Shown: positions 22,261-30,185 of the stretch, one piece after another
Numbering within the stretch: position 1 is the stretch's first letter
Layout of the letters: each line of letters starts with the position of its first letter
Program-made: the position numbers and the translations under genes
The notes under the pieces: model-generated
Databases searched by the model: none
Told to the model about the DNA's origin: nothing
What the model saw: only the letters and a program-made list of their open reading frames with translations
Assembly: GCA_030430915.1 (NCBI GenBank)
Contig: JAUIKH010000007.1
Coordinates: 1-38,727 of the forward strand
DNA: 38,727 nt
Direction of reading: 5' to 3'
From: a bacterium
Lineage (GTDB): Bacteria; Patescibacteriota; Saccharimonadia; Saccharimonadales; SZUA-47

Positions 22261-23364
22261 ATGAGTAAAAGAGATTATTACGAAGTTTTGGGCATCTCAA
22301 AGGGGGCTTCGGATGATGAGATAAAAAAAGCTTTTAGACGCAAAGCAATAGAATTACACCCAGATAAAGAGGGTGGCGATGAAGCAAAGTTCAAAGAAGT
22401 AAATGAAGCGTATGAAGTTTTAAAAGATTCTCAAAAACGTCAGAGATATGATCAGTTTGGTCACGCCGGTGTGGGTGGTGCTTCTGGTGGTGGTAATCCT
22501 TTTGCTGGATTTGGTGGTCAAGGTCAAAATGTTAATTTTGACTTTGGCGATATGGGAGGATTTGGTGATATATTTGGTAGTTTTTTTGGGGGCGGCGGTC
22601 AGCAACGTCAAAGTAGACCTAAAAGAGGTCGTGATGTTGAGATGGCTTTGGAGCTGGATTTTGAAGAGGCCGTATTTGGAGTAGAGACGGAAGTTAAGTT
22701 AAATCTGAACGATACGTGTGAACACTGCAAGGGAAAAACTGTTGAGCCGGGACATCAAATGAAAAAGTGCGACACCTGTAAGGGCTCTGGACAAGAGGTG
22801 CGAGTTGCGAAAACTATTTTTGGCAACATACAGCAGGCTGTGACGTGTCAAACTTGTAGAGGTAAAGGTGAGATTCCTGAGAAAGATTGTAGCGTATGTG
22901 GAGCTACAGGCGTTCAAAGAAAAGATAAGAATGTGAAGATTAAAATCCCGGCTGGTATTGATGATGGGGCAGTAATTAGGTTAAGAGAGTATGGTGAAGC
23001 AACTGCTAACGGTAATAAAGGTGATCTATATGTAAATATTAGGGTTAAGCCGCATAAAGAATTCACGCGTGAGGGGTTGTTAATACTGAGTAGTGTCCAT
23101 ATTGATATGGTAGATGCAGCACTAGGAACAGAAACCGAGATTAACACAGTTGATGGTCCAGTTAAAATGAAAGTCCCAGCGGGCACACAAAGCGGGACTG
23201 ACTTTAAATTATCAGGTCATGGCGTACCACACTTAAAGAGCGACAAGCGGGGCTCTCATATCGTTACTGTTGAAGTGGATACTCCTGTCAAACTAAACAA
23301 GCAACAAAAAGAGTTATTAGAACAATTTAAAAATTCAGACAAAAAGCGTGGACTTTTTAGATAG
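22261..23364 (+). CDS. dnaJ: Chaperone DnaJ
   Basis: J-domain with HPD, Gly-rich region, four CXXC zinc motifs. Confidence 0.97.
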   Translation: MSKRDYYEVLGISKGASDDEIKKAFRRKAIELHPDKEGGDEAKFKEVNEAYEVLKDSQKRQRYDQFGHAGVGGASGGGNPFAGFGGQGQNVNFDFGDMGGFGDIFGSFFGGGGQQRQSRPKRGRDVEMALELDFEEAVFGVETEVKLNLNDTCEHCKGKTVEPGHQMKKCDTCKGSGQEVRVAKTIFGNIQQAVTCQTCRGKGEIPEKDCSVCGATGVQRKDKNVKIKIPAGIDDGAVIRLREYGEATANGNKGDLYVNIRVKPHKEFTREGLLILSSVHIDMVDAALGTETEINTVDGPVKMKVPAGTQSGTDFKLSGHGVPHLKSDKRGSHIVTVEVDTPVKLNKQQKELLEQFKNSDKKRGLFR

Positions 23365-23690: not shown

Positions 23691-25073
23691 ATGAATATGC
23701 GCTCTATTGACGAGCTTGGCTCTTTAAAACCAAATAGCAGACCAGGTGCAGAAAGACTAACTTATGACGGGATAAACACGCCTCTATATGATGAGGGTGG
23801 TGAGCTTCATATTGGGTTAATGAACGAAAGCATCTATGAATCCGAGGCAAAAATTGCAGATTTATGGAATACAGTTGAGTCTGGCGAAGGCGTGGAGGCT
23901 GAAGCAGCCGCCCACGAGCTAGCTAGAATAAATTTAGTTAAAACAGCCAGAGAAATACATAAAACCGGCACAGATAAACTGCTTTGGTCTGAGAGATTTA
24001 GACATGCATCGATAGAATTATATGGTCAGCCGAGTGTTGAAGAGGCTGCCCAACTGCTAAAATCAATGTCTGTTGAATTTTCGGAAATTGAAATAACTAA
24101 TCAAAACCTGGCAGCTCAAAGAGATTACTTGGTGTCAGAATATAACTCTGTTTTAAAAAGAGGAGGTCATGTAATTTCCGCTTCAGTAATTGAAAATCAA
24201 AACACAATTATAGAAGATGCAAAAGAGTTTGGACAATATATTACTAATGAATATAAACCAGTATTTGATCTAGTAGAAGAGGGGCGCACCTATAATGCAT
24301 ATGAACAAAAACAGGTAATTACCGAAGCAATTATAAATCTAAGTAATAAAGAACCAAAGTGGAACAAAGTACAAGTTAGACTTGATGATAACGCTGCTCA
24401 TATGTCTGTCGGCATGAAAGATCCAGAAGATATACATGTCAGTATCGGAGTAAATAGACCAGAGGCCAGCAGTGAAGAGATGAAGGGGTTATTAGCGCAT
24501 GAAGTTATCTGGCATTTAGAGAGAGGGTTAAATGGCTGGGCTTTAAATGACCCAATGATGGGTGCAGGATTTCCTTATTATGAAGCTTTTGAAGAGGGTG
24601 GGGGTATATTTGCAGAAACAGGTGTTAGTGGTGAAATACCTAGAAAACATAAGGATAGATACCTGGATATAGCCCTGGCTTTAGGTATTTTAGACAATCA
24701 ACCTTTTTCTAGGCAGAAGCTAATTGAGCTAGCTGAAATTAGAAATTTACTAGTTGCTTACAAGGATAACAATGGTAGTTTATCCGAAAGTGATATAGTT
24801 CAAACTAAAAAAGCTGCTTATTCTCACGTTGATCGCATATACAAAGGAGGCATAGGCGATGAATCAGATGCAGGCATGGCCGGTGTTTTTACTAAAGACG
24901 TTATCTACTATGAAGGCGTAATAATGATGGATAAATTTAGTAAACTTAGAAAGTCCAAAGGAATTTCTATTGAAGCCATGTTTGGTTATCTAAAATTAGG
25001 TAAATTTAATCCTCTCAGCGAAGTTCAAACAAAGTATGTTGCAGATCATTATGGTATTAAGCTTGCCAATTAG
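23691..25073 (+). CDS. Putative DUF1704/MATCAP-like metallopeptidase
   Basis: MKGLLAHEVIWHLERGLNGWALNDPMMGAGFPYYEAFEEGGGIFAE: HExxxH followed by an EEG-type motif as in DUF1704. Confidence 0.6.
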   Translation: MNMRSIDELGSLKPNSRPGAERLTYDGINTPLYDEGGELHIGLMNESIYESEAKIADLWNTVESGEGVEAEAAAHELARINLVKTAREIHKTGTDKLLWSERFRHASIELYGQPSVEEAAQLLKSMSVEFSEIEITNQNLAAQRDYLVSEYNSVLKRGGHVISASVIENQNTIIEDAKEFGQYITNEYKPVFDLVEEGRTYNAYEQKQVITEAIINLSNKEPKWNKVQVRLDDNAAHMSVGMKDPEDIHVSIGVNRPEASSEEMKGLLAHEVIWHLERGLNGWALNDPMMGAGFPYYEAFEEGGGIFAETGVSGEIPRKHKDRYLDIALALGILDNQPFSRQKLIELAEIRNLLVAYKDNNGSLSESDIVQTKKAAYSHVDRIYKGGIGDESDAGMAGVFTKDVIYYEGVIMMDKFSKLRKSKGISIEAMFGYLKLGKFNPLSEVQTKYVADHYGIKLAN

Positions 25074-25098
25074 TTAACCATGAAATAGACTATGCAAG

Positions 25099-26385
25099 AT
25101 GAAAAAAGACTTAATTTTATTTGTTGGCTATTTTGTTTCACCAAAAGAGGTAGTGGGTGAAATAAAAAGTTTTTTTGGTGAAAATGATGTTCGAGTCGGT
25201 TTAATATACGATAAAAAATCTTTAAAAAATCAGATTATCAACACAAAAATAAATAGCTGTGTAAAGTATTGTGATATTGAATTAGCTGTAGATATGTCAT
25301 CGATTGAAGAAATTAAAAATGCGCTATTTCAAGAACAAAGCAGAATAATTGCTGTAACCACTAGAGGAGAATCATTCTTAAAAGAATTTAAGAGTGTAAT
25401 TCAAATATTACCAGAAAGCGTATTAACTCCCACTGTTAATGCCATAGATAATTGTAGTGATAAATCTAAAATGCGCGAGGCTTTAAGGGCTTATGATGAA
25501 TCTTTAACTCCTAAATCCATAGAAATTAAAAGCACTGATAAAAAACATCTTGAACAAATTTCTCAAAAAACCGGCTTTCCACTAATCATAAAACCAAGCG
25601 GTTTAAGCACCAGCATGCTAGTTACGAAATGTAGCAACTTTAAAGAACTACAAAATATGGCAAAAACAACATTTGATAAAATTCAAGAAAGCTATGAAAC
25701 TCATAAAGGCAGAGGGCAAATTAAAGTTTTGGCTGAAGAATTTATGAGTGGACCTTTGTATTCCGTTGATGCGTATATTGACAGTAAAGGTGAAGGGTTG
25801 TTTTGTCCGGCAGTCAGAACAATAACAGGTGCTGAAGCAGGCAAAAGTGACTTTTATGGCTATCTTCAAAGTATACCAGCAGGACTATCAGAGAAAGATA
25901 AGCAAAAGATGAATAATTATGCTCAAAAAGCTATCAATGCCGTTGGGCTTAAAAACAGTTCTGCCCATATAGAGCTTATACTTTCTTATAAGGGGTGGAA
26001 AATTGTAGAAATTGGTCCGAGAACAGGCGGGCAACGTACTACAATGTATCGTTTGTCTCATAACATCAAGCACAGCTTAAATGACATTTTAACTAGAACT
26101 AATATATATCAACCAAAACTCGAAAAATTTTCTAAATATGTAGCTTATCTAAAATTTTACGCAGAAGAGGAAGGTATAGTTGAAGATGTAAATGGTATTA
26201 ATGAAATTATTAAACTTAAATCCTATGCTAAACATGCAATGGTTACAGGAATTAACAACCAATTTAAATTTGCAAGACACGGTGGGCTAGGAGTTATGAA
26301 CCTGGTTCTGGCCAATAGAAATAAAAATATACTTGAAGAAGACATAAAGAACACGGAAAAAACTATAAAAATAATAATTAAATGA
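25099..26385 (+). CDS. ATP-grasp domain protein (carboxylate-amine ligase-like)
   Basis: FPLIIKPSGLSTSMLVT, VLAEEFMSGPLYSVDAYID, HIELILSYKGWKIVEIGPRTGG. Confidence 0.8.
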   Translation: MKKDLILFVGYFVSPKEVVGEIKSFFGENDVRVGLIYDKKSLKNQIINTKINSCVKYCDIELAVDMSSIEEIKNALFQEQSRIIAVTTRGESFLKEFKSVIQILPESVLTPTVNAIDNCSDKSKMREALRAYDESLTPKSIEIKSTDKKHLEQISQKTGFPLIIKPSGLSTSMLVTKCSNFKELQNMAKTTFDKIQESYETHKGRGQIKVLAEEFMSGPLYSVDAYIDSKGEGLFCPAVRTITGAEAGKSDFYGYLQSIPAGLSEKDKQKMNNYAQKAINAVGLKNSSAHIELILSYKGWKIVEIGPRTGGQRTTMYRLSHNIKHSLNDILTRTNIYQPKLEKFSKYVAYLKFYAEEEGIVEDVNGINEIIKLKSYAKHAMVTGINNQFKFARHGGLGVMNLVLANRNKNILEEDIKNTEKTIKIIIK

Positions 26386-26395
26386 TTTTTATTTA

Positions 26396-26444
26396 TTGAC
26401 AAGTAGGTATCTATACTATAAAGTCACTGTAAAAGGTACCTACT
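26396..26444 (+). promoter_or_regulatory. Promoter with flanking inverted repeat (possible operator)
   Basis: TTGACA 26396-26401 with -10-like TATAAA/TAAAGT; AGTAGGTA (26402-26409)/TACCTACT (26437-26444). Confidence 0.5.
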
Positions 26445-26477
26445 AGTATAAAAATATACAAATTATCAGGTTAAGAC

Positions 26478-27797
26478 ATGTCTTTATTTAGAGAAGCAGC
26501 ACACAGAGATACACTATTATTCATAAACGGAATAAGACCTTCAACAATTGAAGCCGTTGAAACGTACAAAGATGTTTATGAAAAGAGTGTAAATATTTTA
26601 ATTTTGGTTGATAGCCGGCAGAAATCACTATTATCTAAAGCCAAGACATACGAAAAACACAAACGAGTTAGAGTTATAACTTGCGATACTAGATCACCTA
26701 TTAAGGTCAAGCAAGCACTTAAGTCATATAAGGATAGACTGCTTGCTGTTTCAAGCCAGTTTGAAAGCTCAATTCCTTACTTGCAGAAAGTTATACCTTG
26801 TTTGCCATACCTTAATTCTCCTACTCAAGAATCTTTAGATTGGGCCACAGATAAGATAAAAATGCGTAAACTATTAAAAGCTCACAAATCATCTATATCA
26901 CCAAGATTTACCGTCATTAAAGACAAATCAATATCATCAATTGAACAGGTTGAAAAAGCAGTAGGTTATCCTGTGATAGTAAAGCCAGCTGGTCTTGCAG
27001 CTAGCATTTTGGTTTCAGTTTGTTATCACAGAGAAGAACTTGAAGAAGTGCTAGAATCAACATTTAAAAAGATTGAGAAGTTATACAAAGAAAAACTGGG
27101 TAGAGGTACGCCTCAGGTACTTGTAGAACAGTTAATGGAGGGTAGCATGTACTCTATAGATACATATGTGAATGGCAGAGGAAACGTTTACCACGCACCA
27201 CCAGTACATGTTAAGACAGGCAGGTCTATTGGTTTTGATGATTTCTTTGGTTATCAGCGAATAACACCCACTAAACTTACTAAACCAAAAATTGAAGATG
27301 CAAACCATACAGCTACTGAAGCAGTTAGAGCTTTGGGGTTACGCAGTACAACGTGCCATACGGAGCTAATGTACACTGCTAAGGGTTGGAAAATAATAGA
27401 AATAGCTCCACGTATGGGTGGTTACCGCCATACAATGTATAGCTGGTCTTTTGGTATTAATCATATTTTGAACGATATCCTTATTAGAATTCCGCAAAAA
27501 CCTGTACTACCAAAGAAAAGTAAGGGCTACACAGCAGTTTTTAATATGTATGGTGAAAAAGAAGGTAAGCTCTCCTCTATAAGAGGGGCTAAAAAGGTTA
27601 GAAATCTAAAATCCTTTGTACATATGGAGATAAATAAAAAGAAAGGCGAGACACTGCTATTTGCCAAAAACGGTGGCGGTAAGGTGTTGAGTCTTGTACT
27701 GTTTAATAAAAATAGGGCTGATTTATTAGCAGATATTAGACGTATGGAAAAATCACTAGAAATTATAGTTGAGCCTAAACGCAAATCTCGAAAATAG
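26478..27797 (+). CDS. ATP-grasp domain protein, paralog of the upstream gene
   Basis: YPVIVKPAGLAASILVSV, VLVEQLMEGSMYSIDTYVN, HTELMYTAKGWKIIEIAPRMGG. Confidence 0.8.
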   Translation: MSLFREAAHRDTLLFINGIRPSTIEAVETYKDVYEKSVNILILVDSRQKSLLSKAKTYEKHKRVRVITCDTRSPIKVKQALKSYKDRLLAVSSQFESSIPYLQKVIPCLPYLNSPTQESLDWATDKIKMRKLLKAHKSSISPRFTVIKDKSISSIEQVEKAVGYPVIVKPAGLAASILVSVCYHREELEEVLESTFKKIEKLYKEKLGRGTPQVLVEQLMEGSMYSIDTYVNGRGNVYHAPPVHVKTGRSIGFDDFFGYQRITPTKLTKPKIEDANHTATEAVRALGLRSTTCHTELMYTAKGWKIIEIAPRMGGYRHTMYSWSFGINHILNDILIRIPQKPVLPKKSKGYTAVFNMYGEKEGKLSSIRGAKKVRNLKSFVHMEINKKKGETLLFAKNGGGKVLSLVLFNKNRADLLADIRRMEKSLEIIVEPKRKSRK

Positions 27798-27835: not shown

Positions 27836-28300
27836 GTGCATAAATCAAGTATTAAAAAATCTTTACCACAGCTGGTATTAGGACTACTAATGGTGATAGC
27901 CGGCGGGGCAATACTGTATAGTGGTATTTCTGGTATTACCGATAATAGGCAAAAACTTATAGCCCCTAACGAAGTCATTGAAATTGAAATTGTTGATACT
28001 CCAGAACTAAGAAAAAAGGGCTTATCAGGCAGGCAGCAATTAGAGAATAAAAAAGGCATGTTGTTTAAATATGATGAGCCGTCATTGCGTAATTGTATTT
28101 GGATGAAAGATATGAATTTTAGCCTAGATATTATCTGGCTAAATGATAAAAAAGAGGTAACGGATGTTAAAAAGGACGTTTCACCCGAAACTTTTTCTGA
28201 ATCTTTTTGCCCGAAAGGTGAAACCCAGTATGTTTTAGAGGTAAATTCTGGTAATGCTGACAGTTTTGGCATATCTGAAGGTGTTGTATTGAAGTTCTAA
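27836..28300 (+). CDS. DUF192 family protein
   Basis: VDTPELRKKGLSGRQQLENKKGMLFKYD...CIWMKDMNFSLDIIWLNDKKEV. Confidence 0.85.
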   Translation: MHKSSIKKSLPQLVLGLLMVIAGGAILYSGISGITDNRQKLIAPNEVIEIEIVDTPELRKKGLSGRQQLENKKGMLFKYDEPSLRNCIWMKDMNFSLDIIWLNDKKEVTDVKKDVSPETFSESFCPKGETQYVLEVNSGNADSFGISEGVVLKF

Positions 28301-28327: not shown

Positions 28328-28810
28328 ATGGTTTCTGCTCTGCTACCTCTGGTTATTTTTTTAGGTTTACCGCTGGCTCTATTGATAATTTATAAATCAA
28401 ATGCTGGTGTTATGTTCTTGGCAGCCTGTGCCGGTTTAGTGCTTCTAAGCAGCTTAGATGATGCTGTAGTTACGACTGCTGGCTCAGTAGTACCTGGTGA
28501 AGGTGAGGCATATGTGAGGCTTTCGGTTGTATTGCTTTCAATATTCTTTGCAGCGTTAATGTTTCGGCATACAGTGCATGGCACTAAGCTGTTTTTGCAC
28601 GGAGCAATAGTTATATTGCTGGCTGGTATGCTGTGGGTTACTGTGCCTGGTGTTACTGGTCTATCCTGGCTGCAAGAGAGTTCTGATCTAAATTTCTGGC
28701 TAGATTTATATAGTTTCAGGTCAATCATCATTGCGTTAGGATTTTCTTTGAGTCTGATAGCGGTTTTGACAAGCAGGCACAAAAGTAAGCACAAGTCGAA
28801 GAAACATTGA
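28328..28810 (+). CDS. Hypothetical multi-TM membrane protein
   Basis: 160-aa ORF, several hydrophobic helices, basic C-terminus. Confidence 0.65.
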   Translation: MVSALLPLVIFLGLPLALLIIYKSNAGVMFLAACAGLVLLSSLDDAVVTTAGSVVPGEGEAYVRLSVVLLSIFFAALMFRHTVHGTKLFLHGAIVILLAGMLWVTVPGVTGLSWLQESSDLNFWLDLYSFRSIIIALGFSLSLIAVLTSRHKSKHKSKKH

Positions 28811-28880: not shown

Positions 28881-28957
28881 GGGTCCATAGCTCAGCTGGT
28901 TAGAGCACCTGCCTTTTAAGCAGGGTGTCGTGGGTTCGAGTCCCACTGGACCCTCCA
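28881..28957 (+). tRNA. tRNA-Lys (UUU)
   Basis: GGGTCCA..GCTC..GAGC..CCTGC-CTTTTAA-GCAGG..GTGGG-TTCGAGT-CCCAC-TGGACCC-T-CCA. Confidence 0.97.
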
Positions 28958-29471: not shown

Positions 29472-30185
29472 ATGAAAACATTAAGCAAAGAAACATCATT
29501 ACCTGGAGCTCAAGCTATAGAGATAATATCTGACAGGATCAATAACGGTGAAATATCAAAAATTATAAGTTTAGGTGCACACCCTGATGACCAGCTTTTT
29601 TGGGCTGGTAGTTTGAGGCATTTAGTAGATTCTACTAAGAAATCCTCAAGCTTAATCGGAATAACTGATCTGACATTGTCTAAAGGTGAAAATGGAGAGT
29701 CACTGAGTACCAATCATAGCCCTGAAGAATTAGCTGACGCAAGAACTATGGAGAATTACCTAGGTTTTAGCGCGATTTTTGATGGAGTTCACGATAAAGT
29801 TAGCATTGATTTTAATCAAATGGATGTACCTGACGGCGCAATTTCAAGATATGAAGATGAGACTGTGAATGAAATTATAAATAACGAAGGCATTACTAGT
29901 GATAGCGTTATATTAACTTTTAACGAGGTTGGAGGAGATAATCATCCTGATCATATAGCCACCAATAGAATTGCTAGAGAGCTAGCTAAACATTATGGTG
30001 CAGCGTTGTTAGAATTTGGCCTACCAGATAACACAGACAGTACAGTTAAGCTTTCCTCGCAAAATATGAACGTTTCACGTGGTTTTGTGGCAAGTCACAG
30101 AAGTCAATTTGGGGATGAAGGCAGTAAACTCCAAGACCCGCACAATTTATTAGTAGACTACAATTCTCTTACTTTATGGCAATAA
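29472..30185 (+). CDS. PIG-L (LmbE-like) family deacetylase
   Basis: SLGAHPDDQLFWAGSL, LTFNEVGGDNHPDHIATNRI. Confidence 0.85.
   Translation: MKTLSKETSLPGAQAIEIISDRINNGEISKIISLGAHPDDQLFWAGSLRHLVDSTKKSSSLIGITDLTLSKGENGESLSTNHSPEELADARTMENYLGFSAIFDGVHDKVSIDFNQMDVPDGAISRYEDETVNEIINNEGITSDSVILTFNEVGGDNHPDHIATNRIARELAKHYGAALLEFGLPDNTDSTVKLSSQNMNVSRGFVASHRSQFGDEGSKLQDPHNLLVDYNSLTLWQ

Follow-up and report, generated by a model that had tools for sequence, protein, structure and literature searches.

A MATCAP-type metallopeptidase gene and two L-amino-acid-ligase-type ATP-grasp genes in Saccharibacteria: a candidate variant of a peptide-tail editing locus

In bacteria, RimK adds glutamate residues to the C-terminus of ribosomal protein S6 (RpsF), while RimB deglutamylates polyglutamylated RpsF and stimulates RimK (PMC11957791); in Pseudomonas, RimK is also bound and activated by cyclic di-GMP (c-di-GMP) (PMC4741518). 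In eukaryotes, TMCPs strip C-terminal residues and polyglutamylation from tubulin, and the metal-binding features of human TMCP1/MATCAP are the HExxxH and EEG motifs (PMC10499314). Here we describe a locus of a Saccharibacteria genome in which a gene of the MATCAP (DUF1704) family is followed by two ATP-grasp genes, designated ATG1 and ATG2. It lies in a window of 38,727 nucleotides, the whole stretch analysed (contig JAUIKH010000007.1 of assembly GCA_030430915.1); the genome, referred to as G000, comprises 869 kb in 63 contigs and is 99.1% complete, and the comparison set comprised 198 genomes. We propose, with a probability of roughly 55%, that the locus represents a modified form of a module that writes and erases peptide tails, in which the writer has been swapped and MATCAP retained.

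The metallopeptidase and the two ATP-grasp proteins

The three open reading frames (Table 1) are intact and separated by gaps of 25 and 92 bp. The first protein scored 55.3 bits against Pfam PF08014, with a cut-off of 27, and 49.6 bits (3e-13) against TIGR02421 (QEGLA), below the NCBI equivalog cut-off of 338.65. A single MATCAP sequence found nothing in a scan of named genomes, and a five-sequence alignment found five loci, three of them in Saccharibacteria. A profile built from 25 relatives matched the human MATCAP structures 7Z5G (3e-10) and 7Z6S with the HExxxH and EEG motifs aligned; in the alignment of these relatives, H270, E271, H275, E302 and G303 are invariant, and E301 is kept in 90% or more of the sequences. 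The protein is predicted to be a carboxypeptidase removing C-terminal residues.

ATG1 and ATG2 are ATP-grasp_4 (PF13535) proteins with 35% mutual identity; ATG2 is 69% identical to the gene occupying the same position in a related genome (G005), while ATG1 is divergent. The profile of their family (A2) matched BacD (9e-30) and the L-amino acid ligase 3VOT (2.5e-28), and the latter was also the best PDB match of the predicted ATG2 model, which is of moderate confidence (Foldseek E-value 7e-23). Both proteins keep the catalytic pattern H-x-E...E-x-x-x-R-x-G-G, intact in ATG1 as H-x-E...E-x-G-P-R-x-G-G, and the invariant columns of the family comprise, in ATG2 numbering, the metal-binding glutamate pair E296 and E308 as well as R312, G314 and G315 of the Arg-x-Gly-Gly motif. 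Neither protein matched PF03133 (tubulin tyrosine ligase, TTL) at E-values up to 1, which rules out a TTL-type identity. Because of the BacD and 3VOT matches, the kept catalytic pattern and the lack of a TTL match, ATG1 and ATG2 are classified by sequence as L-amino-acid-ligase (LAL)-type and not TTL-type proteins, with predicted ligase activity.

The original prediction, made from the window alone, had described the first protein as DUF1704/MATCAP-like with a zinc-site motif and the next two, on the same strand, as paralogous ATP-grasp proteins; these identities are confirmed, the matches being above chance level. It had also named tubulin tyrosine ligase, along with many peptide ligases, among the ATP-grasp enzymes; the present proteins resemble L-amino acid ligases and not TTL.

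The dnaJ-DUF192 slot and fusion proteins elsewhere in the phylum

PF08014 matches were found in 43 of the 198 genomes, and the profile built in this analysis raised the number to 51. The recurrent gene order is dnaJ, MATCAP, RimB (PF05618), RimK (PF08443 and PF18030), DUF192, a gene for a 160-aa protein and yebC. The window locus, flanked by dnaJ on one side and by the DUF192, 160-aa protein and yebC genes on the other, thus sits in the slot that holds rimB-rimK in its relatives. By coordinate comparison, 40 of the 51 MATCAP genomes, which represent many genera, have the gene no more than 7 kb from RimK; for a conservative count of 39 of 49, with chance linkage set at 15/800 per genome, p is about 1e-58 under independence, a significance inflated by kinship. 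Additionally, MATCAP adjoins RimB at a contig end in G009. MATCAP and RimK are unlinked in, for example, G078, G080, G085, G102, G106, G117 and G136, and G061 has MATCAP without RimK. The window MATCAP falls, with support of 100/99, inside a clade of mostly RimK-adjacent MATCAPs. In two genomes, G158 (L050) and G143 (L046), the MATCAP gene is broken by stops or frameshifts, which suggests that it is dispensable or decaying there.

In the window genome itself RimBK is missing. RimK was not found in G000 at E ≤ 1e-20, while it was matched in 162 of the 198 genomes searched, and RimB (PF05618) was not found at E ≤ 0.1; as the contig is continuous through the slot, the absence of RimBK there is not an assembly gap. 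The A2 ligase family occurs in 35 of the 198 genomes, mostly at the dnaJ-DUF192 slot, and its tree consists of two fully supported clades. All 18 genomes of clade II are RimK-positive, and their A2 gene is typically a neighbour of RimB-RimK encoded on the opposite strand. ATG1, ATG2 and genes from 11 other genomes make up clade I; nine of these 12 genomes lack canonical RimK by the 1e-20 criterion (ten if a weak match in G100 is set aside), and in most cases the clade I gene occupies the slot instead of RimB-RimK (G005, G010, G021, G045, and G079). The difference between the clades is significant by Fisher's test (p 2e-6 for 10/12 vs. 0/18; about 1.5e-5 for 9/12, calculated by hand). On the simplest reading of these distributions, the RimBK writer seems to have been displaced by LAL-type ligases in the window genome, with MATCAP kept.

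The slot is rich in enzymes of peptide-bond chemistry. Among genes of at least 120 aa in 37 slots there were 38 RimK, 27 MATCAP, 27 RimB, 17 LAL-type, 11 GGDEF, nine other ATP-grasp, five C26 and two S51 genes, and 18 others or unknown; about 125 of these 154 genes are peptide-bond makers or breakers by family, although the loci were selected for MATCAP or ligase content, so that the census is biased and descriptive. The diguanylate cyclase-type GGDEF genes, which lie in the RimBK slot at L035, L037, L052, L058, L061, L062, L070, L112, L119, and L123, are of note because c-di-GMP activates Pseudomonas RimK. Genes for class-I GATase/C26 enzymes and for S51 peptidases of the PepE/cyanophycinase type are found repeatedly within or next to the slot (L037, L047, L068, L121, L060, L111, and L112). 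Stand-alone RimB is replaced by ATP-grasp and RimB fusions of about 440-500 aa at L061 and L039 (both Pfam-checked) and at L038 and L053, comparable to the reported RimBK hybrid of Desulfotalea. Two proteins of 611-676 aa encoded near the slot (L119:1979-4009 and L121:2926-4761) carry HELTH, an HExxH motif, and match the MATCAP HMM weakly (31-35 bits); they are possibly a separate zincin family.

Elsewhere in Patescibacteria, 28 of the 30 best PF08014 loci (L199-L228) encode single-protein fusions of ~800 aa, in which an ATP-grasp of the TIGR02291 ("alpha-L-glutamate ligase-like") type is followed by a RimB-like middle domain of ~110 aa and by MATCAP; at L211 the same domain order is split over two genes. 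At L200 and L210, respectively, the ATP-grasp part matched TIGR02291/PF14397 with E-values of 2.4e-85 and 5.3e-75, and the MATCAP part with 2.8e-60 and 8.5e-53, while the middle domain was aligned with the RimB family by hhalign at 97.7% probability (E-value 2e-12). As a line of evidence that does not depend on the Saccharibacteria slot, the fusions indicate that MATCAP probably works with a glutamate-ligase-type ATP-grasp enzyme and a RimB-like domain.

The neighbourhood comparison and the genome counts rule out a conserved unit of MATCAP, ATG1 and ATG2, which the original prediction had implied: the usual partners of MATCAP are RimK and RimB, both absent from G000, and the ligase family co-occurs with MATCAP only about as often as expected (see below). 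What holds of the proposed neighbourhood is that the slot ties MATCAP to ATP-grasp peptide ligases. Likewise, the suggested pairing of removal and ligation stands at the level of a module, by virtue of the conserved slot and the fusions, but is not supported for this particular trio or for a tubulin-like substrate.

Proposed function, substrate and alternatives

In the module we propose, ATP-grasp ligases would extend the C-terminus of a peptide or protein by amino acids, and a MATCAP-type metallopeptidase would take C-terminal residues off again. In most Saccharibacteria the slot writer would be RimK, by homology making poly-Glu on S6, together with the endoprotease RimB; about one genome in four would also have MATCAP as an accessory exopeptidase. 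In the window species, from which RimB and RimK are gone, the two LAL-type ATP-grasps would be replacement writers, MATCAP having been retained. What was observed directly is the homology, the intactness of the catalytic motifs, the conservation of the slot, the fusions in relatives and the replacement pattern, and the removal and ligation reading is well supported as a module because of the slot linkage, the fusions elsewhere in the phylum and the replacement pattern. We infer that the ligases and MATCAP act on one substrate, a protein C-terminus.

Several points weigh against this proposal. The AlphaFold model of the window MATCAP, built from a shallow alignment of five sequences, reached a pLDDT of 71 and gave no significant Foldseek match. 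The A2 family and MATCAP occur together in 10 of the 35 A2 genomes, about nine being expected, so that there is no enrichment at the genome level. Most fusions have lost the catalytic D-T/S-G from their RimB-like domain, and the slot census carries the bias mentioned above. The products of the structurally solved L-amino-acid ligases are free dipeptides and not protein tails. Finally, the activity and substrate of the module are inferred, and the S6 data described next are statistically weak and do not extend to the window genome.

For genomes that have RimK, weak pointers suggest S6 as the most probable target. Among the genomes sampled, S6 ends in glutamate in 29 of 46 RimK-positive vs. nine of 24 RimK-negative genomes (p 0.048) and in two of nine clade I genomes (p 0.03), neither value being corrected for kinship; for example, the S6 tail is ...SDDEE in G001, which has RimK, and ...NDDEK in G000, which lacks it. 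In G170, the MATCAP gene is directly upstream of rpsF and an ssb-like gene (L069:6707-8697), and in G106 relatives of the G170 MATCAP are separated by about 5 kb from a fragment of S6 with which the locus ends. In the window genome S6 polyglutamylation is unlikely, because RimK is absent and S6 ends in lysine; polyglutamylation made by RimK can be ruled out there on the same grounds. Our best guess is that the substrate would be a peptide C-terminus, with tubulin serving as an analogy only.

Among the alternatives, small-molecule peptide metabolism survives best, though we regard it as unlikely: ATG1 and ATG2 would make a free di- or oligopeptide, like BacD and BL00235, or a poly-amino-acid, and MATCAP would hydrolyse the product, no protein being tagged. 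The solved structures closest to both ligases are those of dipeptide ligases, genes of the S51 (cyanophycinase/PepE) and C26 (gamma-glutamyl hydrolase) types are present in other slots, and RimK itself makes free poly-Glu (PMC11957791). However, MATCAP is linked most strongly to RimK and RimB, which are best known for acting on the S6 C-terminus; moreover, eukaryotic MATCAPs work on protein tails, and the slot showed no recognisable gene for a transporter or a precursor peptide. Still less probable is an insertion hotspot, in which insertions are tolerated between dnaJ and DUF192 and the functions of the neighbouring MATCAP and ligase genes are independent. Such a hotspot would account for the variable content of the slot (GGDEF, GNAT, methyltransferase, and glycosyltransferase-like genes), its variable orientation (L031, L038, and L043) and the lack of genome-level enrichment, but not for the fusion of ATP-grasp, RimB-like and MATCAP domains in one polypeptide elsewhere in the phylum; in addition, the majority of slot genes make or break peptide bonds, and MATCAP keeps to RimK even under the altered gene order of L038 and L070. 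Editing of peptidoglycan or another envelope peptide by the ligase and peptidase, as in Pseudomonas RloABC, is very improbable: the fusions carry an ATP-grasp of the alpha-L-glutamate ligase-like family TIGR02291 that is RloC-like by annotation, and rlo mutants show envelope phenotypes (PMC12239564), but the slot showed no recognisable membrane partner of the inactive-transglutaminase kind, the canonical partner in Saccharibacteria is a true RimK (PF08443 and PF18030) and not RloC, and no signal peptide is evident by eye on the window MATCAP.

The literature searched contained no bacterial role for DUF1704/QEGLA/MATCAP and no link of MATCAP/DUF1704 to RimBK, nor anything joining RimK with a carboxypeptidase and polyglutamylation or RimK with Saccharibacteria, and DUF1704 was named in a single paper; Iyer et al. 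2009 (Mol Biosyst 5:1636), the likeliest earlier mention, was outside the search. Thus, the component families are known, while the association of MATCAP with RimBK and the LAL-type replacement appear undescribed in this literature, an earlier report being possible. The linkage to RimK and RimB and the fusions give the family a specific proposed function: it would edit C-terminal tails that an ATP-grasp ligase has made, S6 being the first candidate. If so, tail removal as it occurs in the tubulin cycle would have a precedent in bacteria, in the modification of ribosomes or peptide tags, and the tail-editing locus of Saccharibacteria would be modular and exchangeable. A broader scenario, which we put forward tentatively, is that bacterial MATCAP-family enzymes erase C-terminal tails made by ATP-grasp ligases, being linked genetically, and in Patescibacteria also by fusion into a single chain, with RimK/RimB-type enzymes, that tubulin trimming by MATCAP is a late redeployment of such a bacterial enzyme, and that in the window genome LAL-type ligases replace the polyglutamylase and write a different tail.

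Among other features of the window, a PIG-L deacetylase-like gene (29472-30185) is located 3' of tRNA-Lys and was not seen in the related slots examined. Membership of the locus in a defence system was ruled out, there being no PADLOC match.

Table 1. Features of the locus and its flanks (window coordinates).
Feature	Position	Strand	Remarks
MATCAP/DUF1704-family metallocarboxypeptidase-like protein, proposed eraser	23691..25073	+	460 aa; PF08014 match (7e-15); 7Z5G profile match
HEVIWH = HExxxH metal-binding and catalytic motif, residues 270-275	24498..24515	+	H270, E271, H275 invariant
EEG motif, residues 301-303, proposed third metal ligand	24591..24599	+	E302, G303 invariant; TMCP1 EEG (PMC10499314)
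ATG1, LAL-type ATP-grasp, proposed writer	25099..26385	+	428 aa; PF13535 1.5e-21; clade I
ATG2, LAL-type ATP-grasp, proposed writer	26478..27797	+	439 aa; PF13535 6.4e-18; LAL_C2 1e-4
ATG2 catalytic block HTEL...EIAPRMGG (H294, E296, E308, R312, G314, G315)	27357..27422	+	invariant columns; BacD alignment
dnaJ, upstream slot border, kept in related loci	22261..23364	+	Pfam DnaJ/DnaJ_C
DUF192 protein, downstream slot border, recurrent in related loci	27836..28300	+	PF02643 3.5e-27
160-aa hydrophobic, probably membrane protein, conserved downstream border	28328..28810	+	iterated HMM, 30 matches in loci searched
tRNA-Lys, downstream flank	28881..28957	+	ARAGORN

Comparison with known systems

The window protein shares with MATCAP/TMCP1 and TMCP2 (KIAA0895L and KIAA0895; PF08014) profile homology of the catalytic region and the HExxxH and EEG metal site. 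It differs in being bacterial, in having no tubulin partner and in its genetic link to ATP-grasp ligases; it is about 20-30% identical even to its own relatives, and its predicted model gave no fold match. For ATG1 and ATG2, the best profile and fold matches are BacD/YwfE and BL00235 (3VMM and 3VOT), with the metal-binding glutamates and Arg-x-Gly-Gly kept. Known members of that group make free dipeptides, whereas ATG1 and ATG2, which score far below the curated cut-offs of named families, sit at a putative protein-tail-modification locus. The cycle of tubulin tyrosine ligase and MATCAP is an analogous removal and ligation pair, but not a homologous system, ATG1 and ATG2 having no PF03133 match.

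With RloABC of Pseudomonas aeruginosa and the TIGR02291/TIGR02421 (QEGLA) proteins the resemblance lies in the Patescibacteria fusions, which combine TIGR02291-type ATP-grasp, retropepsin-like and QEGLA/MATCAP domains; RloABC differs in its inactive transglutaminase and secreted proteases, and the available part of its description mentions no MATCAP subunit. Pseudomonas RimABK, with its RimK polyglutamylase and RimB retropepsin, offers the same logic of an ATP-grasp writer and a peptidase eraser; RimK and RimB adjoin MATCAP in relatives of the window genome, and the c-di-GMP link has a parallel in the GGDEF genes of about 10 related slots. In contrast to RimABK, the window genome has neither RimK nor RimB, its candidate writers are of LAL type, and its candidate eraser, MATCAP, is a zincin and not an aspartic protease.

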